A stretch of 36,649 bases of DNA. Origin: Gammaproteobacteria bacterium. Its GTDB lineage: Bacteria > Pseudomonadota > Gammaproteobacteria > SZUA-152. Location of the stretch: the NCBI GenBank assembly GCA_021647505.1, contig JAKIUN010000037.1, positions 1 to 36,649 on the forward strand. Reading direction: 5' to 3'. Below, one piece after another: positions 3,990-17,433 of this stretch (within the stretch, counting starts at the first letter, position 1; every line of letters begins with the position of its first letter). The notes below the pieces were generated by a model. It worked only from the letters and a program-made list of their open reading frames with translations. It was not told where the DNA came from and made no database searches. The position numbers and the translations under genes were made by a program.

Positions 3990-6836
3990 TTAAAACGAGC
4001 CACCGAGGTTCAGGTAGATCTGTTCCGTGCCATCGTCGTCGAGGCCCAAAGCGTAGCCCAGGCGCAGGTTTACGGGCAACCAGTAGCCCAGTACCAGGGT
4101 GGCGTTGAATTCCGTGCCGATGCTGGATTTCAGATCATCCATGGCAAAGCGGTCATTCCAGGCATCGCCGGTATTGAAAAACAGCGTGCCATGCAGGCGG
4201 TGTACGCCGATGGGGGGCGCCATCAGGCCGCGTTCGATGAGCGTGATGGGGAAGCGCCATTCTATCTCGAACAGTCCCATGCGCCGGCCGGTGAGGTCAC
4301 GTAGGCCTTCAGCATAGCCGCGCAGGGCGTAGCGGCGGTGGTTGAAGAGGGCGTCGGTGGGGCCAAGGACGGCGGCATACGGGTTGCTGGGGATGGTGTT
4401 CGAGAGGCTGCCACCAAGGCGGAAGGAGCGAGGTTTATCGCTGCCCCAGCCGGCCACAATGCGTGTGGCAAGGACGTGTTCGCCTTTCAGGTCAATGAAT
4501 TCACGCCAGTCCAGGGTATAGACCTGGCCGCTGGAATCGCTGCGCAGTAGGTCGTTGTCTTCGGCAATCAACCGCAGTTGGCGGCCATTGCTGGGACTGA
4601 TGGAGCGGGCATAGCGGCGGCTGGAGTCATAGCTGACGGCAATGCCCAGCAACTGGTCGCGGATCGTTGCTTGGGGGGCGAAGCCGGGCAGGATGCGTTT
4701 GTCCGATTCGACCTCGGAGACCAGCCCGGCATGCAAAGTCCAGCGCTGGTCGTAGCGGAAGAAGGGCCACAGAGCCTCAAGGGTGAGGCTGTCGCTGTCA
4801 CGAAAATGTACCGGCTTGTCGTTGCTGTCACGCAGGCTGATGACCTGCCGTTCGGCACTGAGCTTGAGGGTGGGATTCCAGCGATCATAGAGGTAACCGA
4901 TGCGGCCGATAAACCAGTCATTTTTTACGTCACGGGCCAGGGCCAGGCTGTAGTTGTGCCGGTTCAATGGGTCGTTGCCGGCGGTGCTGAAGCCGAGTTC
5001 GCTACGGTCGTCGCTGAAGGCTAACCAGGGCAGCCACCAGGTGGGGGCGATGCGCGGTAGTGGGCTGTAGTCGGTAATTTCACCGCGGATGGTGTTGCCA
5101 GCAATCGGTGGAGCTGGCTTGCTGGCGGGCACTGTATACAGGGTTGGACGCGGCTGTGGGGTGGGCAGGAAATAGAGGTCGAAGCCGTGTGCGCCGATGC
5201 CGGTGAAATACAGGCCACTGTCGTCGGGTGCCTCTATGGGGGAGAAGGCGCCGCCAATGAGATTGCTCAGGGTGTCGATTCTGCCGCTGTGCAGATCCAG
5301 CTGGCGGATGTTGTAGACGCCATCGTAGTCGGCGCTGAATAGAAGCGACTGGCCGTCGCGTGAATAACGTGGTGTGGTCTCGATGCCGGCGGCGCGGGTG
5401 AGCATTCGCCACTGCCGATCTACCAGTGAAAAGCCTTCGAGGTTCCACTGGCTGTCCCGGCGCCATACCGGCAGGGCGAGTTGTTGCCCGTCCGGTGACC
5501 AGTCCAGTGCGCCGAGCACGGTGTGGTCGCTTCCCTGCCACAGGATTTCCAGTAGTTTGCCGTGCGTGTCGAGCAGATGCAGGGCACTTTGTCCGCCGCT
5601 ATTGTGTACTGCGGCGATTTGCCGGCCGTCCGGGCTCCAGGCGGCGAACAGGTAGCGGCCGCCGTGGGTGAGCCGGGTCTTTTTGCCGCTGTCGGGGTCG
5701 AGGTGGTAGAGGTCGGCGAACAGGTTGGTGCTGCGGGTGGTGTCGATCTCGGCGACCACGATACCGGCCTCGGGATGCAGGTCGAAGTGGCGACCGCGCA
5801 TGTCACCGATGGCCTGCGCCTGCTCACCACGGCGCAGGCGCATCAGGCGGGGTTCGCTCTGTTGGTCGTCACGCAGAAAATAGACGTCGCCATTGTCGGC
5901 TACCTGCGCCATACCGGTGAAATAGCCATGGCGTGTGAGCTGCTGTGCCGGTGTTTCGCCGCGCTGGCGAATGTCTGTGATTTCGGTGCGGAAGTCATCG
6001 TGCAGATAGCTTTTGAATTCCACCCACAACCGCTTGAGGTTGGCATCGAGCACCTTGCGGGTGTTGCTGTTGATCATGAAGGGGATGAGGTTGTTGCTGT
6101 ACTGCTCGACTAATTCCTGCACTTTCTCTTTGCCGTAACGTTCAGCTACAAACTGATAGAAATAGACGCCGTAGAGGTAGCGGACCGTGTTCATGGGCCA
6201 GCTTTCCAGCGGCTGGTTTACCTGCCGCACCGGCTTGATGCCATATTCGCTCTCCATGCGCATCAGCATGCGGAATTGTGTGTTCTGGCCGCGGCCGATG
6301 TGACTGTCGTTATCGGTTTCGTGATAGGTGGCCAGGCCCTCGATGAACCAGGGTGGTTGCAGCATGTTGGGAAACAGCAGAAGCATCCGGCCAAAGGCCT
6401 TTTGCAGGCCGGCCGGTAGACCCGCGCGCTTGTCGAGATGCAGGATGTGGATGTATTCGTGGGTGATCAGGGTATCCAGCCAGTCGTTATAGTCGTTGAC
6501 GACACTGTCACTCCTTGGCGGCGTGACGATGATGGTCATGGTATTGCGCGGAAGAGGGGTCGTGGATCCATTAAAAAAATCGAAGCGATCCGTGAGGATG
6601 AGTTGGGTGCGCTGCGCCGGACGCCAGTTCAGGCGGCGGGTGAGGCGGTCGTGTGTCCGCTCGGCGATGGTGGCGACTTCATGGGCGAGGGCCTCTTCGT
6701 CGCCATGGAAGTGAATCTCGAAGTGTGCGCTGGTGAGAGTTTTCCACTGTAGGTCGGGGTCGTGCGTCAGCGCGGCCTGCAGGGGGTCGGCAAGAAAAGC
6801 GCTGAGCAATAATAGGCAGAGGCTAAGGTGTTTCAT
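3990..6836 (-). CDS. Outer-membrane metallopeptidase-propeller-barrel protein (paralog 1)
   Basis: The 948-residue product starts at the ATG at 6836, which gives a clean signal peptide (MKHLSLCLLLLSAFLADPLQA); an in-frame GTG lies 30 bases upstream. Domain order: a gluzincin-like peptidase domain (about 20-290) with HEYIH at 126-130 and a downstream EGLATY whose Glu166 is the likely third zinc ligand; a TolB/PD40-type propeller (about 300-600) with repeats such as AWSPDGRQIA, DWSPDGQQLA and YSRDGQSLLFSADY; and a C-terminal beta-barrel (about 630-948). The barrel contains 'FRLGGS', 'YALRGYAEG' and 'EIEWRFPI', resembling the RGY/RGF region of Omp85 proteins, and ends in Phe as outer-membrane proteins do. 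It is a paralog of the gene at 11369. The substrate is unknown. Confidence 0.8.
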   Translation of the reverse strand: MKHLSLCLLLLSAFLADPLQAALTHDPDLQWKTLTSAHFEIHFHGDEEALAHEVATIAERTHDRLTRRLNWRPAQRTQLILTDRFDFFNGSTTPLPRNTMTIIVTPPRSDSVVNDYNDWLDTLITHEYIHILHLDKRAGLPAGLQKAFGRMLLLFPNMLQPPWFIEGLATYHETDNDSHIGRGQNTQFRMLMRMESEYGIKPVRQVNQPLESWPMNTVRYLYGVYFYQFVAERYGKEKVQELVEQYSNNLIPFMINSNTRKVLDANLKRLWVEFKSYLHDDFRTEITDIRQRGETPAQQLTRHGYFTGMAQVADNGDVYFLRDDQQSEPRLMRLRRGEQAQAIGDMRGRHFDLHPEAGIVVAEIDTTRSTNLFADLYHLDPDSGKKTRLTHGGRYLFAAWSPDGRQIAAVHNSGGQSALHLLDTHGKLLEILWQGSDHTVLGALDWSPDGQQLALPVWRRDSQWNLEGFSLVDRQWRMLTRAAGIETTPRYSRDGQSLLFSADYDGVYNIRQLDLHSGRIDTLSNLIGGAFSPIEAPDDSGLYFTGIGAHGFDLYFLPTPQPRPTLYTVPASKPAPPIAGNTIRGEITDYSPLPRIAPTWWLPWLAFSDDRSELGFSTAGNDPLNRHNYSLALARDVKNDWFIGRIGYLYDRWNPTLKLSAERQVISLRDSNDKPVHFRDSDSLTLEALWPFFRYDQRWTLHAGLVSEVESDKRILPGFAPQATIRDQLLGIAVSYDSSRRYARSISPSNGRQLRLIAEDNDLLRSDSSGQVYTLDWREFIDLKGEHVLATRIVAGWGSDKPRSFRLGGSLSNTIPSNPYAAVLGPTDALFNHRRYALRGYAEGLRDLTGRRMGLFEIEWRFPITLIERGLMAPPIGVHRLHGTLFFNTGDAWNDRFAMDDLKSSIGTEFNATLVLGYWLPVNLRLGYALGLDDDGTEQIYLNLGGSF

Positions 6837-6904
6837 GGCGGCCCAAGATCCGCGATTGATTGACACAACGCAAGAAAAACCCTCAAGAGGTGGGTAACAC
6901 AGGG

Positions 6905-6933
6905 ATTGTAAAGGCCTTGTCGCTCATCACCAA
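6905..6933 (-). promoter_or_regulatory. Probable sigma70 promoter for the peptidase-barrel gene
   Basis: Reading the minus strand, TTGGTG (6933-6928) is followed by a 17-base spacer and TACAAT (6910-6905). The -10 matches consensus at five of six positions; the -35 keeps only the TTG. Transcription would start near 6898, about 60 bases before the ATG at 6836. Confidence 0.5.
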
Positions 6934-7066
6934 TAAATCTCATTACTCCTGCCGGGTATGCTCAACACGTTTGGTATTGGCTCACCTGTGAATAGCCGCC
7001 AAAACCAAGTGAAATACTCTGATATGGCAAGGCCATCTGGATGAAGTCTTGTGTTGACAGCCATAA

Positions 7067-7090
7067 AAAACGGGATTATTATCCCGTTTT
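7067..7090. terminator. Perfect AT-flanked hairpin abutting the DUF6502 start codon
   Basis: AAAACGGGAT (7067-7076) and ATCCCGTTTT (7081-7090) form a perfect 10-bp stem with a TATT loop. This has the shape of a bidirectional intrinsic terminator. It lies between two divergent genes, where no terminator is expected, and its right arm touches the ATG at 7091. It could end stray transcription from either side or act as a leader hairpin that limits expression of the downstream lipoprotein operon. Confidence 0.55.
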
Positions 7091-7945
7091 ATGGGGATAT
7101 CGATCAAAACTGTACTGGCTCAAGCAAGCATAAAGATATTAAAACCACTAATAAGGGTACTGATGCGTAACGAAATATCACAGGGTGAGTTTGCCGAGTT
7201 TGCAAAGCGAGCTTACATGGAGGTTGCGTATGAACACTTTTCTATACCCGGTCGAAAAACGACCTATTCCAGAGTGGCCATCCTGACCGGGCTGAACCGC
7301 AAAGAAATTGTTCGTCTGACGCAACAGAGCAGCAGCGAAATTCAACCCAGAAAAGGTACAACTAACCGTGCCTTGAGAGTGGTCACCGGGTGGCTAAATG
7401 ACCCGGAATTTCTGAACAAGGAAAAGCAACCTGAAACCCTGCCCATCAAAGGCGACTGCGCCAGCTTTGAGGCATTGGCTATCCGCTACAGCGGAGATAT
7501 TACTGCCAGGGCGATACTTGAAGAACTCAAACGTATCGGAGTTGCAAGAGTTACGGCGGAAAAGGATTTTGTACAGCTGCTCAGTTGTGGCTATATACCG
7601 AAAAATGACAAGCCGGAACAGATTGAAATTATGTCAATCAGTGCCGCTGATCTGTTGGAAACGGCGGTGCATAATCTCGAGCATGAAAAAGAGGAACTGC
7701 GCTTTCAGCGGCAGCTGATCCACAGGGATGTACCGGAAAATATCGTCAAGGAATTCAAGGCCTACAGTCATCAAAAATCATCTGCTCTGCTATCGGATCT
7801 TAATCAGTGGTTGATCCAGAGAATGTCTCAGAATCCCTGTGCTTCAGAAGATTCTGTAAAACGGGTGGGTGTTGGCATCTATTATTTTGAAGAACATGGA
7901 AACGTTGAAGGAGAGAAAAGTGAGTCACTTAAAAGTAAAGAGTAA
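7091..7945 (+). CDS. DUF6502 family protein
   Basis: The 284-residue cytoplasmic protein matches DUF6502: an opening helix 'ILKPLIRVLMRNEISQGEFAEFAKRAYMEV' (residues 16-45), then an HTH-like 'TYSRVAILTGLNRKEIVRL' (56-74), and a charged middle and C-terminal region ('LETAVHNLEHEKEELRFQRQL'). The family has no experimentally known function that I can cite. The N-terminal part looks like a winged-helix DNA-binding region, so a regulator is possible. Its 3' end overlaps the next gene, a large surface lipoprotein, by 26 bases, so the two are translated from one message. The ATG is directly preceded by a hairpin instead of a ribosome binding site, so the start remains somewhat uncertain. Confidence 0.75.
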   Translation: MGISIKTVLAQASIKILKPLIRVLMRNEISQGEFAEFAKRAYMEVAYEHFSIPGRKTTYSRVAILTGLNRKEIVRLTQQSSSEIQPRKGTTNRALRVVTGWLNDPEFLNKEKQPETLPIKGDCASFEALAIRYSGDITARAILEELKRIGVARVTAEKDFVQLLSCGYIPKNDKPEQIEIMSISAADLLETAVHNLEHEKEELRFQRQLIHRDVPENIVKEFKAYSHQKSSALLSDLNQWLIQRMSQNPCASEDSVKRVGVGIYYFEEHGNVEGEKSESLKSKE

Positions 7946-10646
7946 ATCGTATTTTTTCAGGGCCTGTCTATTGGCTTTTGTCATTGCAACGCTGGTTGGG
8001 TGTGGCGGCGGCAGCAAGAATCCTGAAGATATTATTGGCACCGGAATCCAGGGCACCGCTGCTACGGGTGCCGCGATTGCCAATGCAACAATAACCGTTA
8101 AATCAAAAAGTGGCGCCACTCAATCAGATATTTCTGATGCGAATGGCAAATTCAAGGTCGGTGATCTGGCCGATGACGGCCCTTACCTGCTGCGGGTAGA
8201 TAAGGGTAACGAAGATTTTCTTTATAGTGTTGCGCACAGCAATAATACCTCCACTATTCGCCGAAATATTCATCCCTATACCGATTTGATAGTCAGAAAT
8301 TGGTTCAAAAAACAGGGCCTGGATCTTGACGCAGTATTTGCCGGCGCGGGTGCTATCACCGATATGCCGACTCAGGCGGAAGTGGATGACATCAAGGATG
8401 AAATCCATGCCATTGTCGCGCAAGTGCTGGATCGGAATGGTGTCGTTGCAGGAGATGTCGATTTATTGTCCACATCCTTTGATGCCGATAGTACTGGCTT
8501 TGATGGCTTTCTTGATAATAGCTCGGTTGTTATCAATAACGATCAAATCGCGATTATCATCACTGACCCGGTGACCAGCATTCAAAACCTGATTATCAAT
8601 GGCGTCAATCTCGATATTGACTTCAAGTCAGATGTGGATGCTGCACCAACGACACCGGGTAACTTACGTGCCTTATCTACCTTGCCTGCAAGTACTGGCG
8701 AAATTGTTGTTGTCTGGGATGCCTCAACAGATGATAAAGGCGTGGCGGGGTATAACGTCTATCGCAATAGCGATCTGATAGGTACGACACCGTATCCAGT
8801 GTACCGTGATACAGGTTTAAAGCCTGATACCAACTATAGTTATGAAGTGGAAGCCATTGATGGTCGAGGTCAAGTATCCGGCAAAACAACGGCGACAACG
8901 CCCATTGTGCTGGGTATACCGGATACCAAGGCGCCACCGATATCCACCGACCTGCAGGCCAGTGCCGATGACAGCAGTGCAACACTGAGTTGGTCGCAAG
9001 CACAAATCGATGATGTGGTTGGATTCCGTATTTTCCGTGGCGCGAGGGAGAATGCGAAAATGCTGGTTGCCACGGTGACTTCAACAGGCTATACCGATTT
9101 GTACCTGACCAGTGCAACAGAATACTGTTATCGCATTGAAACCTATGATGCGGCAGGTAATACATCCGATCCCAGCAAAGAAAAGTGCACAACAACTAGT
9201 GGTGTAACGCCAAACCCGTCCAGCGTTTCATTCTCTGCCGCGACTTATACCGTGGCAGAAGATATTGCCAGCATCACTATTACAGTGAATCGTGCAGGTG
9301 ATATTTCTGAAGCCATCAGTGTGGATTATGCCGCCAGTAATGGCACGGCGGTTGATGGTGAAGACTTCTCGGTGACTTCAGGGACGCTGAACTGGGCAGC
9401 GACTGATAGCAACGCAAAGACATTTGACGTACAAATTATCTCAGACAGCGCAACGGAAGGAGATGAGACCGTTAATCTGGCACTGTCCAGCCCGTCGGCA
9501 AATACAAGCTTGGGAACCAATACAACAGCCGTGCTGACAATTATTGATATTATTGTGGGTGTTTGTAATGGTGAAATTACGGCTCGTAATATCGATGTTG
9601 ATACAACACTAAGTGAGTCCTGTTATAAAGTGCCGAATGGTATTTCTGTAAATAGTCCTGCAAAGCTGACGATTGATCCAGGTGTTAGATTGGAGTTTGC
9701 TGCGGGCACAGATCTTGTGGTGAATCAAGGAGCATCGTTATATGCTGTTGGTACAGTTGCAGAGGAGATTATTTTTACTGCTCTAGATGCAATGCCCGGT
9801 TATTGGAGAGGTATTCGGTTTAATCGGAGCAACAGTCTCGACAATCAGCTGGATTATGTGACGGTTGAATACGGCGTGACTAATATCGGTATTGAGTCAG
9901 CGCAATACGACCCCTCGCGTCTCGGGATGAAAAATACCACTTTGCGCTACGCCAGTAATTTAGGGATGAATATCGATGACAGTCGTGTTTTACTGAATGC
10001 TTTTGAGAGCAATACTCTGAGGTCAAATGATCGCCCTGTTAGACTGCCTGCTGAGAAGATTGGGGCGCTGGGCAAGGATAGCCGTTATAGCGGTAATACA
10101 GATGACCGGATTTATGTCTTCAATGAAACAAGCATTGGTGTTGTTACAGCACAAACATGGCAAAAACTGGATGTGCCTTACTATATGTATAGCGGTGGAG
10201 ATATCATTCCATACACCGTTAATGAGGCATTAACTTTGGAGGCGGGTGTTTCTCTTATATTTAATTCAAATGCTCGCTTATCTGTAAATGAGTCTGGATC
10301 ATTGAAAGCAATTGGCACAGCCGCCGAGCCAATTCTGTTCACCGGGCTTGTAGAAATGCCGGGCTACTGGAGGGGTATTCGGTTTAATCGGAGCAACAGT
10401 CTCGACAATCAGCTGGATTATGTGACGGTTGAATATGCGGGTGGGGGAGGTAGTGAAGGAAATATCGTGTTAGCTTGTATCTCCTCTCCTTTTTATCCTA
10501 CACGTTTGAGCGTGATCAACAGCACCATAAAAGACAGCTTTAGCTGGGGGATATATACACAATATCCGGCAGATGGTTGCAACATTATTACGTTAACTGA
10601 TAATGCCTATAGTAACAATGCATCAGGCAATGTGAATATTCCCTAA
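7920..10646 (+). CDS. Large multidomain surface lipoprotein (FN3, Calx-beta, beta-helix)
   Basis: I choose the GTG at 7920, giving 908 residues, because AAGGAGAG (7907-7914) sits correctly before it and it places a lipoprotein signal with LVGC (Cys28) at the N-terminus. Domains in order: a carboxypeptidase-regulatory-like beta domain (about 35-100), a helical linker, two fibronectin type III domains (about 242-325 and 336-425), a Calx-beta domain (about 430-545), and two beta-helix-like repeat units (about 575-908). Both units share 'MPGYWRGIRFNRSNSLDN'. No catalytic site is visible, so an adhesive or structural surface role is likely. It is translationally coupled to DUF6502 and followed by a terminator at 10707. 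GC content is visibly lower than in the flanking peptidase-barrel genes. Confidence 0.8.
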   Translation: MSHLKVKSKSYFFRACLLAFVIATLVGCGGGSKNPEDIIGTGIQGTAATGAAIANATITVKSKSGATQSDISDANGKFKVGDLADDGPYLLRVDKGNEDFLYSVAHSNNTSTIRRNIHPYTDLIVRNWFKKQGLDLDAVFAGAGAITDMPTQAEVDDIKDEIHAIVAQVLDRNGVVAGDVDLLSTSFDADSTGFDGFLDNSSVVINNDQIAIIITDPVTSIQNLIINGVNLDIDFKSDVDAAPTTPGNLRALSTLPASTGEIVVVWDASTDDKGVAGYNVYRNSDLIGTTPYPVYRDTGLKPDTNYSYEVEAIDGRGQVSGKTTATTPIVLGIPDTKAPPISTDLQASADDSSATLSWSQAQIDDVVGFRIFRGARENAKMLVATVTSTGYTDLYLTSATEYCYRIETYDAAGNTSDPSKEKCTTTSGVTPNPSSVSFSAATYTVAEDIASITITVNRAGDISEAISVDYAASNGTAVDGEDFSVTSGTLNWAATDSNAKTFDVQIISDSATEGDETVNLALSSPSANTSLGTNTTAVLTIIDIIVGVCNGEITARNIDVDTTLSESCYKVPNGISVNSPAKLTIDPGVRLEFAAGTDLVVNQGASLYAVGTVAEEIIFTALDAMPGYWRGIRFNRSNSLDNQLDYVTVEYGVTNIGIESAQYDPSRLGMKNTTLRYASNLGMNIDDSRVLLNAFESNTLRSNDRPVRLPAEKIGALGKDSRYSGNTDDRIYVFNETSIGVVTAQTWQKLDVPYYMYSGGDIIPYTVNEALTLEAGVSLIFNSNARLSVNESGSLKAIGTAAEPILFTGLVEMPGYWRGIRFNRSNSLDNQLDYVTVEYAGGGGSEGNIVLACISSPFYPTRLSVINSTIKDSFSWGIYTQYPADGCNIITLTDNAYSNNASGNVNIP
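9810..9871 (+). repeat. 62-bp exact direct repeat, copy 1
   Basis: This stretch inside the surface lipoprotein gene is identical base for base to 10374-10435. It encodes the shared GIRFNRSNSLDNQLDYVTVE segment of the two beta-helix units. The surrounding parts of the units have diverged at both DNA and protein level. Confidence 0.9.
10374..10435 (+). repeat. 62-bp exact direct repeat, copy 2
   Basis: The second copy is identical to 9810-9871 and in the same reading frame. The copies are 564 bases apart (188 codons), so recombination between them would delete or duplicate one unit without a frameshift. Confidence 0.9.
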
Positions 10647-10706
10647 CCATGCCAGAAAAAGTAATGGAGTACGGAAACAAAGGTTGACATGGAATCTCAT
10701 AAACAC

Positions 10707-10734
10707 GCGGGGGACATTCCGCCCCCGCATTTTT
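10707..10734 (+). terminator. Intrinsic terminator after the surface lipoprotein gene
   Basis: GCGGGGG (10707-10713) pairs with CCCCCGC (10722-10728) across an 8-base loop and is followed by ATTTTTATT. It lies 60 bases after the lipoprotein stop and 30 bases before the next start, so the small lipoprotein is either separately transcribed or reached by read-through. Confidence 0.8.
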
Positions 10735-10763
10735 ATTCAGAAATAGTTCAAGAGGCTTATGAA

Positions 10764-11300
10764 ATGAAGTCACATAATCATTTTTACTCAAAAGAGTTTG
10801 TTTTCAAGTTAATCAGTACCACGCTGTTTACTATGGCGTTGGTCGCCTGTGGCGGGGGAGATGAGCCTGAGAATAACACGGGAGGGAACGGGCCAGTAAA
10901 TGGTGGCAGTAAAACCGAACTGGAAGGCACATGGAAAAACTGCTTTAGTGGTCGCGCATCCAGTGCTAGTACAGCATATACTTTTTCAGGATCAAGCTTC
11001 AGTCTCATAAAAGAGCGTTATACGGATTCAAACTGTTCAGACAAGGATATAACGATGCTCTCTGTCACCGGAATATTTGAGATCAAAAGCTCAATAACTA
11101 CCGATAGTGGCGCTTCCGCAAAAGAGATTGATTTTCATCACCTGACCGGGTACGAGTTTAATCAGCAACCTAAATTTTATAACATTTTCCTGATGGATAA
11201 TGATAATTTGTATTGGGGAGATGGCTTGACCGGAGATACAGCTTCCGTGGATCAGCGGCCAACTGATATTAGTTATACGCTACCCTATGTTTCCGAATAG
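10764..11300 (+). CDS. Small lipoprotein of unknown function
   Basis: Starting at the ATG at 10764 (AAGAGG about 10 bases upstream), the product has 178 residues with a signal and a lipobox LVAC (Cys29). A flexible Gly/Asn/Pro linker ('GGGDEPENNTGGNGPVNGG') follows. The mature part begins 'ELEGTWKNCF' and holds alternating polar strands with cysteines at 'WKNCF' and 'DSNCSDK', which could pair as a disulfide. This looks like a small lipocalin-like or other beta-barrel/sandwich domain ('EGTWK...' is a common opening), but I recognise no family. It lies between the large surface lipoprotein and the second peptidase-barrel gene, all in the same direction, so it may be a substrate or partner of that system. 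Confidence 0.7.
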   Translation: MKSHNHFYSKEFVFKLISTTLFTMALVACGGGDEPENNTGGNGPVNGGSKTELEGTWKNCFSGRASSASTAYTFSGSSFSLIKERYTDSNCSDKDITMLSVTGIFEIKSSITTDSGASAKEIDFHHLTGYEFNQQPKFYNIFLMDNDNLYWGDGLTGDTASVDQRPTDISYTLPYVSE

Positions 11301-11301
11301 C

Positions 11302-11340
11302 GGGGTTGATTATTCTGTCCTGCTTCGGTCAATCCCTTTT
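11302..11340 (+). terminator. Possible intrinsic terminator after the small lipoprotein gene
   Basis: GGGGTTGA (11302-11309) can pair with TCAATCCC (11329-11336), with one G-U pair and a 19-base loop, followed by TTTT. The loop is long, so this is a moderate call. Confidence 0.4.
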
Positions 11341-11368
11341 CCGGAAACAATAAAATGCACGAAACCTG

Positions 11369-14269
11369 ATGAAATACATTTCCGTATTTCATTTTTTAAG
11401 AACGATTTTACAGCCCCAATCCGCTTCTGGTGAATTGGGGTATTTTGCGTTACGAGCAATCATAATCCTCGGCGTGTCGTTGTTTGCAATGTCCTCCGCC
11501 ATGTCCGCAACCTTGCATGATCCCGCATTGAACTGGCAGACCTTGCATACAGAACATTTCGCCATTCACTTCCATGATGGTGAACAATCGATGGCTGAAG
11601 AGCTGGCGGTGATCGCCGAGCGTACCCACCAAATCCTGTCCAAACAGTTGCAATGGACTCCTGCGGGCAAGACCGATGTGGTACTCACCGACCGCATGGA
11701 TTTCAGCAATGGCTGGGCGACCCCGGTACCCCGAAATCACATCACGCTCATCACCACACCACCAGTATCGGTAGAAGACTATCATCACTGGATGGAGTTG
11801 CTGTTTATCCATGAATACACGCATATATTGCATCTGGATAAAAAAGAGGGCCTGCCAAAACGGCTTCAGGTGCTGTTTGGTCGTCTGCCGGTTTTGTTCC
11901 CCAATGTCTTGCAGCCCGGCTGGCTGAAGGAAGGCCTGGCCACGTACATGGAAACCGATAGGGATAACGGTATTGGCCGTGGTCAGAGTAGTTTGTACCG
12001 AACCATGATGCGCCTGGAATGGCAGAATGGCATCAAGCCTTTGTCCCAGGTCAGCGCCGGTACCACCGACTGGCCAGCCGGCACGACCGCCTACTTGTAT
12101 GGGGTGTATTTCTATCAGTTTCTCGCTGATCGCTATGGCAGGGAAAGTATCCAGCAACTGATTAACGGCTATAGCGACAACATCATTCCCTTCATGTTGA
12201 ACACCAATACCCGGCAGGTGCTGGGTAAAAATCTGGCCACCCTGTGGCAGGAGTTTGATCAATATCTGGCCGAAGAATTCAGTGGCCAACTGGAATTGCT
12301 GGAAAAAAGTGGCGCGGGTTCCGGCCGGCGCCTGACCACCGACGCCTACCGCAGTGGACGGCCTCAAGTATTGCCTAATGGTGATGTGCTGTATGTTCAG
12401 GATCGGATCTACAATTGGCCGCGATTGATGCGTCTGTCTGCCGCTGATGGACTGGCCCACGAAATCGCCGAGGTGCGGGGTCTTGTTTTCGACGTCCATC
12501 CTGCGGCGGGTATTCTGTTGATCCAAACCGAATTGTCAAACAATACCAATCGCTTCAACGACATCTACCTGATCAATCTGGAAGATGGCAGTGAGATACG
12601 TCTGACCGAAGGTGGGCGTTACCGTTATGCCATCTGGGGCCAGGATGCCCGATACATCCTCGCCGTACATTATGAACTGGGCAGGCACAGCCTACACCGC
12701 CTCGATCGACAGGGTCGGTATCTTGAAACCCTGTGGCAGGGGGAGGATGCCAGCGTCATCGCTGGGGTTGATCTTTCTCCGGATGGCGCAACCCTGGTCG
12801 CTGCCGTATGGCGCCCAGGCAGTCGCTGGAATCTTGAACTGTTTGATATGGGGTTGGGTGCATGGCAAAAGCTCACTCATACAGCGGCCATTGAGGCTCA
12901 ACCCCGGTTCAGTCCCGACGGCGGCGCTATCCTGTTCAGCGCCGACTATGAGGATGTCTACAATATCCACCGTATTGATTTGCAGGACAGGCAGCTCACT
13001 CGCTTGACCCACCTGACCGGTGGCGGTTTTTATCCGGCCCTCTCAATGGATGGCCGGACCCTGTACTACAATAATCTGGGGACAGGGGGCGTCGATCTGC
13101 ATAGTCAGCCAGTGGGGGATTATCCACTGGCGGCGACCATCAAGATATCCCGCGATGTCCCACAGCAGCACGAAGCACTGACCGAGTTTGATATCAGTGA
13201 TTACCGGCCCGGCAGGCACATAATGCCGGGCTGGTGGTTCCCTTATCTTCTGGTCGATAGTCAGGAAGTGGAGGCCGGGGTTTATACCTCCGCCAATGAT
13301 CCTCTGTGGCGTCATAACCTGCAATTATTGCTGGCCGCCAATCTTAAACACCAGCTGCCAGCGGGCTATATCGATTACCGTTACGACCGCTGGCAACCCA
13401 TTCTTCAGTTCTACATCAGCCGGGAGCACGGATATTACCGGAATAGCGCCGATGAATTGCTGCGTATTCGCAGTGAAGATACATTGTTGCTGGCCATCGA
13501 ACGCCCTTTCCTCAAGGTGTTACGGCGTTGGTCACTGCATGCCGGCCTGATTTTCGAACGAACACAGGATAGCGTCCGCGCCTCTGGCGTGGCGAGGTGG
13601 CGTGACACCAAGCAAGGCATGGTCGGGGTGGCGCTGAGTTATGATGATACGGTTCGTTATCCGCTGTCCATTAGCCGCAATGACGGACGCGTGATCAATC
13701 TGGTGGTGGAAGACAGTGATATTATGGACGGTGATTTCAGCGGCAGGGTGGCGCGCCTGGATTGGCGTGAATTTATCCATATCGGAGAGCAGCAATCCCT
13801 GGCGTTGCAGTTTTCCGCCGGACAAGGTGGCGTGGATACCTCGCCCTTCAGGCTGGGTGGTACTTTTGGTGACAGCATTACTCTGCCGGGTAATCCGGGG
13901 ACATCCTCACCCTTCAATAAACGTAAATTTCCACTGCGGGGATATCCTCAGGGCCTGAATATTCTTACGGGTGAAAACATGCTGCTGCTCAATGCAGAAT
14001 GGCGCTTTCCGTTGCACCGCACAGGGCGCACCCTGATGTCGCCGCCAGTGGGCATCCAGCAGTTATCCGGTAAAGTGTTCTATAACACCGGTACCGCCTG
14101 GAAAGGGGGTTATGGTCAGGAAAACAGGTTTAGCGGCGCAGGGATTGAACTGGAGGCCGATGTGATTCTTGGTTATCTGTTGCCGATGACCCTGCGTGTC
14201 GGGTTTGCCTCGGGATTTGATTTTGGCGGTGAAAACCAAGCCTATTTGAGTCTCGAACGCTCGTTTTAG
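11369..14269 (+). CDS. Outer-membrane metallopeptidase-propeller-barrel protein (paralog 2)
   Basis: This 966-residue protein is the paralog of the gene at 3990-6836, on the opposite strand and with the same domain order. The signal segment lies unusually deep (residues 25-47, ending in SAMSA), so the true start could be a TTG near 11438. The peptidase domain has HEYTH at 148-152 and 'KEGLATYMETD' with Glu188; the propeller has repeats ending 'FSPDGGAILFSADYEDVYNIH'; the barrel has 'FRLGGTFGD', 'FPLRGYPQG', 'NAEWRFPL' and ends in ERSF. All putative zinc ligands are kept in both copies, so both are probably active enzymes, not decayed duplicates. It follows the two lipoprotein genes in the same direction, suggesting it acts on, or exports, them. 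No substrate is known. Confidence 0.8.
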   Translation: MKYISVFHFLRTILQPQSASGELGYFALRAIIILGVSLFAMSSAMSATLHDPALNWQTLHTEHFAIHFHDGEQSMAEELAVIAERTHQILSKQLQWTPAGKTDVVLTDRMDFSNGWATPVPRNHITLITTPPVSVEDYHHWMELLFIHEYTHILHLDKKEGLPKRLQVLFGRLPVLFPNVLQPGWLKEGLATYMETDRDNGIGRGQSSLYRTMMRLEWQNGIKPLSQVSAGTTDWPAGTTAYLYGVYFYQFLADRYGRESIQQLINGYSDNIIPFMLNTNTRQVLGKNLATLWQEFDQYLAEEFSGQLELLEKSGAGSGRRLTTDAYRSGRPQVLPNGDVLYVQDRIYNWPRLMRLSAADGLAHEIAEVRGLVFDVHPAAGILLIQTELSNNTNRFNDIYLINLEDGSEIRLTEGGRYRYAIWGQDARYILAVHYELGRHSLHRLDRQGRYLETLWQGEDASVIAGVDLSPDGATLVAAVWRPGSRWNLELFDMGLGAWQKLTHTAAIEAQPRFSPDGGAILFSADYEDVYNIHRIDLQDRQLTRLTHLTGGGFYPALSMDGRTLYYNNLGTGGVDLHSQPVGDYPLAATIKISRDVPQQHEALTEFDISDYRPGRHIMPGWWFPYLLVDSQEVEAGVYTSANDPLWRHNLQLLLAANLKHQLPAGYIDYRYDRWQPILQFYISREHGYYRNSADELLRIRSEDTLLLAIERPFLKVLRRWSLHAGLIFERTQDSVRASGVARWRDTKQGMVGVALSYDDTVRYPLSISRNDGRVINLVVEDSDIMDGDFSGRVARLDWREFIHIGEQQSLALQFSAGQGGVDTSPFRLGGTFGDSITLPGNPGTSSPFNKRKFPLRGYPQGLNILTGENMLLLNAEWRFPLHRTGRTLMSPPVGIQQLSGKVFYNTGTAWKGGYGQENRFSGAGIELEADVILGYLLPMTLRVGFASGFDFGGENQAYLSLERSF

Positions 14270-14328
14270 CGCTGAGTTGTCCGCTGGCTCCTCGCCGTTT
14301 CAAGTGGATTGACGTTAGTTAAGTTGGT

Positions 14329-17300
14329 TCAAATTTTGTGTTGCCGGGTATCGGCTGCCCCCATGAAGGTGCGGTACAGCAGCGGAATGACAAACAGTGT
14401 CAGCACGGTAGAGAAGGCCAGCCCCCAGACGATGGCGGAGGCCACCGGCCCCCACACCAGTGATTTGCCGGCCAGTCCGGTGGCCAGTGAGAACAGCCCG
14501 GCGATGGTGGTCAGTGAGGTGATAATGATGGGGATCACGCGCCGCCGTGCGGCATAGATGATGGCATGTTGCACGCTCATGCCGCTGGCGAGGCGGGTGT
14601 TGGCGGCGTCGATCATGACGATGGCGGCATTTACTGCGATGCCGGCCAGGGCCACTACGCCGTACAAGGTGTACAGACTCAACGGGTTATGGGTGACGGC
14701 GAGGCCAAATACGACGCCGATGAAGGCCAGCGGTACGGTGGCAAGGATCATGAAGGGTTGCCAGTAACTGCGGAACTGACTACCGAGGATCAGGTAAATC
14801 AGGCCGACGCCGAACAGGAATAGTGAGGCCATGGCATCGAGGCTTTCCTGGATGTCATCCAGTTCGCCGGAGAATTCCAGATCCACGCCCGGGTACTGTG
14901 TGTGCAGGGTCTGCCATTTTTCCTGTATCTGCCGATTGACAGTGACCGTGTCCATCTGTGTCTGATCCAGCTCCGCTTGCAGGGTGATGGCGCGGCGGAA
15001 ATTGTAGTGGCGGATATAGGCCTTGCCGGCGCCACTGCTGACGTGCACCAGTTCGCCTAACGGGATTTCGCGGGCCTGTTGTGCCGTGCCCTCGGGCAGG
15101 GCGATGGGCTGGCGCAGCGCCTCGTCGATGCTGTCGACGGTGAGCGGCTGGGCGCGCACCCGCACTTCGACCTTTTCACCCTGATCCTGCATGCTGGCGA
15201 CCACCTCGCCATCGAACAGCAGGCGGATGTCGCGCATGACATCGCTGGTGCGCAGGCCGGTGCGTTGCAGGGCATCGGTGTTGAGGCGCAGACGTAGCTC
15301 GGGCTTGCCTTCGCTGTCGTCGTCGCGGATGTCATGTACGGCGGGCATGGCCTCCAGCTCGCGCCACAGGGCGTCGGTGGCGGCGCGCAGCTCGTTAAAA
15401 TTGTCGCCGCGTACCTTGACGTTGATGGGGCTGGAGGTGGGTGGGCCGGGTTTGATGACGAAGAAGTTGACACGGTTTGGCCCTGACACAGCCATCACAT
15501 CGGCGCGCATGGCGTCGATGATTTCGTCGATGGTGCGTGTCTGGTTGTGACCCGGGTTGAGGCTGAAGGCGATCTGGCCGTACTGATCGCCAAAATAGGG
15601 TGCCATCTCCGTGAACATCTGCCCAGCTACGGAAATGATGCCGCGCGTATCATTATCTTCGAGGTGTTCGCGTGCCTTGCCTTCGATTTCAAGCAGGGTG
15701 TCCATGGTTGTTTCAAGGGATGTGCCGGGCGGCATCTGCACATTGACGTAGAATAGCCGTGAGGGATCGAAGGCGAAGAACTGTACCCGCACCTGACCGC
15801 TGGCGAGCAGACCCAGCGCCGCCACCAGCAGCAGGCCGATGATACCCAGTGAGCGCTTGGGATAACGCAGCACGCGGATCAGCAGGCGGCAGTAGGTGAT
15901 GCGCACCCAGTGGGTGAAGCGCACGCGCAGGGCTTGCAGGCGGGAGGTTTTTTTGAAATTAACGCGGGCGGCGCTGATGTGTACCGGCAGCATCCAGAAG
16001 GCCTCGATGAGGCTGATGGCCAGCGCGACCGAGACGACGAAGGGGATGATGAACATGAAGTCACCTATCAGCCCCGGCATGAGCATCAGTGGCAGGAAGG
16101 CCGCCATGGTGGTTAATACCGAGGAGGTGACGGGCTTGAACACCTCGCGCAGGGCATCAATCGCGGCATCCAGCGCCTGGGCACCGCGCTGCAAGCGGTA
16201 ATAGATGGCCTCGACCACCACCACGGCGTCATCCACCAACATGCCCAGCACGATAACGATGCCCAGCAGTACGGACTGATTGAGTGTTTCACCGATACTG
16301 TTGAGCAGCAGAAAAGTCGCGGCGAGTGTGAAGGGGATGCCGATGCCGATGAAGACGGCGATGTGTCCACCGAGAAAAATCCATGTCACCAGCACCACCA
16401 GCAGCAGACCCAGCGCTGCGTTGTTCTGCATGATACGCAGGGCGTCGCGGGTAGCGACGGTCTGATCGTCGAGCAGTTTCAGCTCCAGTCCCAGGGGGGC
16501 GAGAGTCGGGTTTTTTGCGGTGATGTAGTCTTCGACGCGTTGTACCAGCTCCAGGGTGTTGGCGTTGGTTTTTTTGGTCACCGAGAGAAGCACGGCGGGT
16601 TTGCCTTCGTGCATGGCCAGCTTGGTGCTCTTTTCGCGCACGCGCTGGACGCTGGCCAGTTCGCCAATCGGTGTATTGCCGCTGCTGGTGCTGACCGGCA
16701 GGCGGGCGATCCGCCCGGGGTCGCTGCTGGTGCCGATCAGTCGTACCAGCCAGGATTGCTCACCGACCCGCAGCTCGCCGGCGGAGACATCGCGGAAGTG
16801 GGCGCGTACCGTGTCGGCTAGCTGGGTGGGGGTAACGCCGTAGCTGCGCAACAGCTCGGGGTCGAATTCGATCTGAATCTCTGGATCCTGCAGACCGGCG
16901 GGACCTGTGGTGTCGACGCCACGCAGACGGTCGATGTCGTCGCGGATATTGCGTGCCGCGCGGCGCAGGGTTTCGTCGTTGGCCATGCCGTGCAGCACCA
17001 CCATCGCCGTGGGGAATTGGCTGGCGGTGGTGAATTCCATCACGAAAGGTTCACTGGCCTCATCGGGCAGATCGGTGTTGGCCTTGTTCTGTACCTCGCG
17101 ACGCAGGTCGGAGAGGCGTTTGTCGAACAGGCGTTCGTCGATGTCGTCGAAGCGTACGCTGATGTCGGATATGCCTTCGCGGGTATTACTGATGACGAAC
17201 TTGACGTCGGACAACCCCTGCAGGGCGTCTTCCAGTGGCTGCGTGATCAGCTTTTCGACATCCTCCGTGGATGCCCCGGGCAGGGCCGTGACCACGGCTA

Positions 17301-17433
17301 CCCAGTTGAAATTGATTTCAGGATCCTGGGCGCGGGGTAACTGGAAATAGCTGAGCGTGCCGACCAGTAGAATGACCACGAAGGTGGCATTGGCGAGGAC
17401 GTGATTTTGCAGAAAGTTGCGCAAGAAGCTCAT
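14329..17433 (-). CDS. RND-family efflux transporter, HAE1-like inner-membrane subunit
   Basis: The 1034-residue length and topology fit AcrB/MexF-type pumps: an N-terminal membrane helix (about 14-33), a large periplasmic loop, helices from about residue 340, a second periplasmic loop, and a final helix cluster (about 850-1025). The proton-relay pair Asp401-Asp402 sits in 'LGMLVDDAVVVVEAIYYR', as in hydrophobe/amphiphile RND pumps. TM10 reads 'VVALAGIAVNAAIVMIDAANTR', the usual late motif. The partner adaptor gene is upstream on the same strand, but 334 bases away with an oppositely oriented small gene between them. No TolC-like channel gene is in the window. The substrate cannot be read from the sequence; drug or solvent export is the family default. 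Confidence 0.92.
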   Translation of the reverse strand: MSFLRNFLQNHVLANATFVVILLVGTLSYFQLPRAQDPEINFNWVAVVTALPGASTEDVEKLITQPLEDALQGLSDVKFVISNTREGISDISVRFDDIDERLFDKRLSDLRREVQNKANTDLPDEASEPFVMEFTTASQFPTAMVVLHGMANDETLRRAARNIRDDIDRLRGVDTTGPAGLQDPEIQIEFDPELLRSYGVTPTQLADTVRAHFRDVSAGELRVGEQSWLVRLIGTSSDPGRIARLPVSTSSGNTPIGELASVQRVREKSTKLAMHEGKPAVLLSVTKKTNANTLELVQRVEDYITAKNPTLAPLGLELKLLDDQTVATRDALRIMQNNAALGLLLVVLVTWIFLGGHIAVFIGIGIPFTLAATFLLLNSIGETLNQSVLLGIVIVLGMLVDDAVVVVEAIYYRLQRGAQALDAAIDALREVFKPVTSSVLTTMAAFLPLMLMPGLIGDFMFIIPFVVSVALAISLIEAFWMLPVHISAARVNFKKTSRLQALRVRFTHWVRITYCRLLIRVLRYPKRSLGIIGLLLVAALGLLASGQVRVQFFAFDPSRLFYVNVQMPPGTSLETTMDTLLEIEGKAREHLEDNDTRGIISVAGQMFTEMAPYFGDQYGQIAFSLNPGHNQTRTIDEIIDAMRADVMAVSGPNRVNFFVIKPGPPTSSPINVKVRGDNFNELRAATDALWRELEAMPAVHDIRDDDSEGKPELRLRLNTDALQRTGLRTSDVMRDIRLLFDGEVVASMQDQGEKVEVRVRAQPLTVDSIDEALRQPIALPEGTAQQAREIPLGELVHVSSGAGKAYIRHYNFRRAITLQAELDQTQMDTVTVNRQIQEKWQTLHTQYPGVDLEFSGELDDIQESLDAMASLFLFGVGLIYLILGSQFRSYWQPFMILATVPLAFIGVVFGLAVTHNPLSLYTLYGVVALAGIAVNAAIVMIDAANTRLASGMSVQHAIIYAARRRVIPIIITSLTTIAGLFSLATGLAGKSLVWGPVASAIVWGLAFSTVLTLFVIPLLYRTFMGAADTRQHKI

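Follow-up and report, generated by a model that had tools for sequence, protein, structure and literature searches.

The window analysed here is a stretch of 36,649 nucleotides of a gammaproteobacterial contig (JAKIUN010000037.1, assembly GCA_021647505.1). Two genes for large peptidase-propeller-barrel proteins, PPB1 on the minus and PPB2 on the plus strand, enclose a DUF6502 gene together with two genes for lipoproteins, and the open reading frames lie where an earlier note on this DNA had placed them. The features are as follows:

3990..6836, minus strand: PPB1, the resident protein with a predicted gluzincin-like peptidase, TolB-like propeller and Omp85-type barrel; it flanks the cassette and lies outside it
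6447..6461, minus strand: zinc-site motif HEYIH of PPB1, with EGLATY at 6324-6341
7050..14289, plus strand: mobile cassette, with approximate ends, as given by the block shared between three different chromosomal sites
7054..7082, plus strand: sigma-70-type promoter TTGACA-N17-TATTAT (11/12 matches, the best in the region)
7072..7085, plus strand: operator-like palindrome GGGATTATTATCCC, overlapping the -10 box
7091..7945, plus strand: DUF6502 gene, encoding a predicted autoregulator
7920..10646, plus strand: large lipoprotein gene (GTG start at 7920, 908 aa; lipobox LVGC followed by an IIGTG signature, two fn3 domains, Calx-beta and C-terminal repeats)
9734..9871 (copy 1) and 10298-10435 (copy 2), plus strand: 138-nt repeat within the large lipoprotein gene, the copies being 80% identical
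about 10764 to 11300, plus strand: small lipoprotein gene (lipobox LVAC)
11369..14269, plus strand: PPB2, the cassette-borne protein of predicted peptidase-propeller-Omp85 type
11516..12304, plus strand: predicted gluzincin-like peptidase domain of PPB2 (HEYTH at 11810-11824, EGLATY at 11930-11947)
13184..14266, plus strand: predicted Omp85-type barrel of PPB2 (RGY motif at 13937-13945, C-terminal Phe)
14329..17433, minus strand: acrB, encoding an RND efflux permease of the AcrB family and marking the right side of the insertion site

The coding sequence of PPB1 was taken from the ATG (3990-6836, minus strand); its open frame extends to 6866. The region between the two PPB genes had been described as AT-richer, and the DUF6502 and lipoprotein genes indeed have a GC content of 43-46% vs 60.4% for PPB1, with values of 53.9% for PPB2 and 60.9% for acrB.

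An identical order of the DUF6502 gene, the large lipoprotein gene and PPB2 was found in four genomes of two genera, a small sample, namely this genome (G000), G001, G002 and G013, the copy in G001 spanning two contigs. The GC content of the DUF6502 and large lipoprotein genes is 43-49% in all four. The small lipoprotein gene, which had been counted as part of the system, occurs in the window only, and the other three cassettes pass straight from the large lipoprotein gene to PPB2; it was therefore rejected as a cassette member and is a local addition. Overlapping match pieces suggest that the number of 138-nt repeats differs in the lipoprotein genes of G001 and G013. The cassette lipoprotein of G013 (L080, 6190-10307) is broken into more than one open frame, so this copy may be decaying or misassembled.

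A protein with a lipobox and GTG signature is encoded on the same strand at -77 to +20 nt after DUF6502 in the window and in most of 24 loci, and this partner commonly belongs to DUF5666 (PF18914). The large lipoprotein of the window shows fn3, Calx-beta and CarboxypepD_reg-like matches and no DUF5666; the DUF6502 partner at locus L097 is likewise of the fn3/Calx-beta type. Pairs of DUF6502 and lipoprotein genes without PPB are present in G007, G008 and G010.

Over 931 residues, PPB1 and PPB2 show 45% identity, and they are built alike: a peptidase-like domain at the N-terminus, then a TolB-like propeller, and a barrel at the C-terminus. The HExxH motif and the downstream glutamate in EGLATY, reported before as retained in both paralogs, correspond to H148, E149, H152 and E188 of PPB2 and are kept in 40 of 41 aligned homologues. 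The propeller is TolB-like, as had been proposed: PD40 repeats score above the cut-off in 38 of the 41 homologues, and the profile matches in the PDB are TolB chains (best E 2e-21). The proposed barrel gains support from Omp85 (PF01103), the only family matched by the barrel sub-alignments, which is found in 11 of 20 barrel segments (E up to 0.1, best 1e-6) and not in the window member alone, and from the RGF/RGY motif of loop 6, whose G858 and Y859 are invariant in the 41 homologues (RGY, with some HGY, among the homologues listed). Searches with the barrel alone gave no PDB profile match, and no POTRA domain was recognised in PPB1 or PPB2. Peptidase_MA_2 (PF13485) weakly matches 10 of 20 members (E up to 0.1, best 3.4e-4); the window peptidase reaches 18.6 bits, below the Pfam cut-off of 32.4, and the only PDB profile found with the PPB peptidase alone was a marginal M1-type aminopeptidase. 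The AlphaFold2 model of PPB2, built from few input sequences, was poor except for the propeller, with the barrel part below pLDDT 50, and the fold of barrel and peptidase is consequently judged from sequence. These data support the assignment of both proteins as a gluzincin-like peptidase followed by a TolB-like propeller and an Omp85-type barrel, the peptidase being the more tentative part. One PPB homologue (L159, 7674-10640, in G075) carries QKLTQ in place of HExxH and Ala in place of the Glu, while the rest is kept; it is likely a pseudo-peptidase.

Nearly every genome of the window's family has a PPB orthologue, usually a single one, and PPB was found in 37 of 369 sampled genomes of the class, mostly once and next to unrelated genes. 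Per genome, PPB and DUF6502 co-occur 18 times vs 9.9 expected (p 0.002, kinship ignored), and neither DUF6502 nor DUF5666 adjoins PPB at any of about 33 further loci of the class. PPB2, on the other hand, was present in four genomes and in each of them only beside DUF6502 and the large lipoprotein. The association of the architecture with DUF6502 and lipoproteins that the earlier note had put forward thus fails for the PPB family at large and holds for PPB2; likewise, the link of a peptidase-barrel gene to the large lipoprotein applies to PPB2, in four genomes of two genera, and not to PPB1. Since DUF6502-lipoprotein pairs occur without PPB, and PPB without DUF6502 or lipoprotein neighbours, PPB is dispensable to the pair, and PPB2 is an added part in this version of the operon.

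Linkage and architecture make it plausible that PPB2 exports, folds or trims the large lipoprotein, which we offer as a guess. The main alternative is that PPB2 acts as a general assembly or quality-control factor of the outer membrane, a BamA/BamB/BepA-like fusion serving many proteins, so that the lipoprotein neighbourhood would reflect shared transport and regulation and not cargo. The mostly single occurrence of PPB among unrelated genes in the class is consistent with such a role, as are the RND pump, Lnb_N or PtsP-type genes adjoining PPB1 in relatives and the WD40-Omp85 subfamily, whose members Heinz and Lithgow (2014, PMC4104836) likened to a fusion of BamA and BamB. Against it stands that PPB2 was found nowhere but next to DUF6502 and this lipoprotein in each of the four genomes, and we regard this alternative as a genuine possibility that falls short of being probable.

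The DUF6502 protein, 284 aa long, matches PF20112 with 205.6 bits (cut-off 27) over positions 4-264 of 268. The family is present in 99 of the 369 sampled genomes of the class, and none of the papers searched mentions it. A PDB search gave no convincing relative; the AlphaFold model, with a mean pLDDT of 39, is of low confidence, and together with the sequence it points to a helix-turn-helix-like segment at about residues 57-78. The promoter TTGACA-N17-TATTAT lies upstream of DUF6502 in this genome, G001 and G002, where the palindrome GGGATTATTATCCC is found over the -10 box, 4-5 nt before the ATG. A longer palindrome at 7067-7090 of the window abuts the ATG at 7091. The corresponding promoter of G013 reads TTGACT-N17-AATAAT, and the palindrome there is GGGATAATAATCCC.

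Beyond these genomes, GGGA-N6-TCCC was found near the start of 25 of 52 DUF6502 loci vs 7 of 660 other genes, with 0.1 expected from shuffles. The class-level set alone contains it at 12 of 28 DUF6502 loci (Fisher p 6e-14), and the spacer is specific, as N5 was found once and N7 and N8 not at all among the DUF6502 loci. TTGAC upstream and an ATG a few bases past the palindrome were also observed at several DUF6502 genes of other families (L102, L182, L184, L191, L196, L197, L202). A scan of 355 kb surrounding DUF6502 genes gave 25 strict sites, the majority of them located at the starts of DUF6502 or DUF5666 genes. In the neighbourhood of DUF6502, GGGA-N6-TCCC was also seen to precede DUF5666 and other genes or to coincide with their annotated start (L107 4706/4732, L100 6452/6521, L102 9499), some of these sites being paired. 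The 22-mer containing the palindrome is unique in this genome at up to 3 mismatches, which suggests that the DUF6502 regulator is likely local. Regulation of PPB1 or of distant genes by DUF6502 was considered and rejected, no second operator having been found in the window or, for the 22-mer at up to 3 mismatches, in the genome.

The frequency of the palindrome at DUF6502 loci lends weight to the earlier suggestion that DUF6502 is a regulator. We predict that it likely acts locally and is dedicated to regulating operons for envelope lipoproteins, with GGGA-N6-TCCC as its candidate operator, the two forming a putative new regulator-operator pair. Alternatively, GGGA-N6-TCCC could be a promoter element, or the site of another factor, that is merely located at DUF6502 genes; lying over the -10 box, the palindrome consists in part of promoter sequence, and about half of the DUF6502 loci are without a strict match. 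The exact spacing, the conservation of the arms beyond the -10 hexamer and the rarity of the pattern at other genes (7/660) argue against this, and the uniqueness of the 22-mer in this genome is more in keeping with local than with global regulation. Moreover, several DUF6502 loci without a strict match lie downstream of another gene or have an alternative palindrome. We therefore consider this alternative improbable and retain GGGA-N6-TCCC as the candidate operator of DUF6502.

The family-level tree places PPB2 of this genome, G001, G002 and G013 in a separate clade (support 100/100). When class-level rows were added, this clade joined the PPBs of another family (100/99), outside its own family's PPB1 clade, while the PPB1 phylogeny follows genera. 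In G003, G011 and G014, PPB1 follows acrB on the same strand after 14-91 nt; one Lnb_N-type gene lies between them in G006, and an Lnb_N-type gene, an abhydrolase and one further gene in G013 and G016. The acrB-PPB1 interval accordingly varies in the family, being empty or holding an Lnb_N/DUF7840-7843 gene, the same gene with an abhydrolase, or the cassette (window 6836-14329; L081-L088, L096). As judged from phylogeny and neighbourhood, PPB1 is the resident gene, PPB2 is of separate ancestry and the inverted pair is no unit: the cassette landed beside an older cousin, which makes PPB1 and PPB2 mimic a matched pair. That the two are a local inverted duplication that co-evolved around the lipoproteins, as their adjacency, inverted orientation and 45% identity might suggest, is extremely improbable, as separate clades, one following genera and the other joining another family, together with PPB2 orthologues at other sites without PPB1 beside them, rule it out unless the trees are badly wrong. 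The inverted pair that the earlier note had taken as the frame of a system is thus dissolved by the separate deep clades, by the position of PPB1 beside acrB or other genes in relatives, and by the three other cassettes without an adjacent PPB1.

The cassette occupies three different sites. In this genome it forms a block of about 7.2 kb between PPB1 and acrB, neighbours in relatives; in G001 and G002 it is located between FBPase and hemC, a site that is empty in this genome and G013; and in G013 it is flanked by genes for a short-chain dehydrogenase and a GST. Across the two genera, PPB2 shows 80-84% identity vs only 54-55% for PPB1, whereas both are 80-88% identical within the genus. Because the two genera also share 92% identity in FBPase and 78% in hemC, identity alone is no proof of transfer, and the case is carried instead by the contrast with PPB1, the tree and the insertion sites. 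No recombinase was found for the cassette, and no convincing terminal inverted repeats at its ends. Carriage by a phage was rejected, as DUF6502 and PPB have no viral relatives, and carriage by a plasmid as well, as PPB2 has no close plasmid relative and DUF6502 on Rhizobium and other plasmids is below 30% identity among the matches listed.

We observed directly in the genomes compared the gene order, its conservation at three sites, the separate ancestry of PPB2 and the palindrome at the promoter of many DUF6502 genes. On this basis, we favour, with some reserve, the explanation that DUF6502, the GTG-signature lipoprotein and PPB2 form a horizontally acquired three-gene operon in which DUF6502 would switch its own expression at the palindrome and PPB2 would aid the lipoprotein. 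DUF6502 would bind the palindrome over the -10 box and repress or otherwise switch its own leaderless operon in response to some signal. With the operon on, the large lipoprotein would be lipidated and carried to the outer membrane, where PPB2 would reside, its peptidase and propeller being located in the periplasm. PPB2 would then aid the delivery, folding or trimming of the large lipoprotein, which is the weakest step of the model. A more far-reaching version appears unlikely to us, namely that PPB2 combines an outer-membrane translocase and a maturation protease in a single protein dedicated to the adjacent lipoprotein, and DUF6502 a new family of local regulators that controls mobile envelope-lipoprotein operons via GGGA-N6-TCCC.

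Metalloproteases of the BepA/M48 type are known to work with BamA in outer-membrane quality control, BepA being a separate periplasmic protein with TPR repeats. PPB would resemble BepA in being an HExxH metallopeptidase at work in outer-membrane barrel assembly, but its peptidase, propeller and barrel are in one chain and the peptidase is closer to Peptidase_MA_2 and M1-like gluzincins. Like the WD40-Omp85 proteins (PMC4104836), PPB has a TolB-like propeller ahead of an Omp85-type barrel; the HExxH peptidase domain preceding the propeller is not mentioned in the description of that subfamily considered here. Compared by description, PPB may be a WD40-Omp85 member with an added peptidase domain. 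The Omp85 protein BBJ25 of Borrelia, which is plasmid-encoded and for which an export system has been proposed (PMC13078400), parallels PPB2 as an accessory protein that is carried by mobile DNA and may take part in export, but belongs to another phylum and is likened to PPB2 by description alone. The pairs of DUF6502 (PF20112) and DUF5666 (PF18914) share with the window the succession of DUF6502 and a lipobox/GTG lipoprotein as well as the operator-like palindrome; the window departs from them by a lipoprotein with fn3, Calx-beta and repeats in place of DUF5666 and by its additional PPB gene.

The lasting result is a mobile lipoprotein operon that probably regulates itself, together with a new candidate pair of regulator and operator. 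For DUF6502, an uncharacterised family, the specific operator candidate points to a likely function and a regulon of envelope lipoproteins. Furthermore, an accessory Omp85-type protein with a predicted built-in peptidase and propeller moves between genomes in company with a single lipoprotein, so that the delivery of lipoproteins by proteins of this kind can be tested directly.

The end of the contig (window 1-2300) is of low GC content, about 37%, and contains a fragment resembling a REP-associated tyrosine transposase at 1988-2260. A gene with a weak Tlde1 domain at 839-1252 is followed by a gene without an assigned family at 1265-1723, and the two are perhaps an effector-immunity pair.
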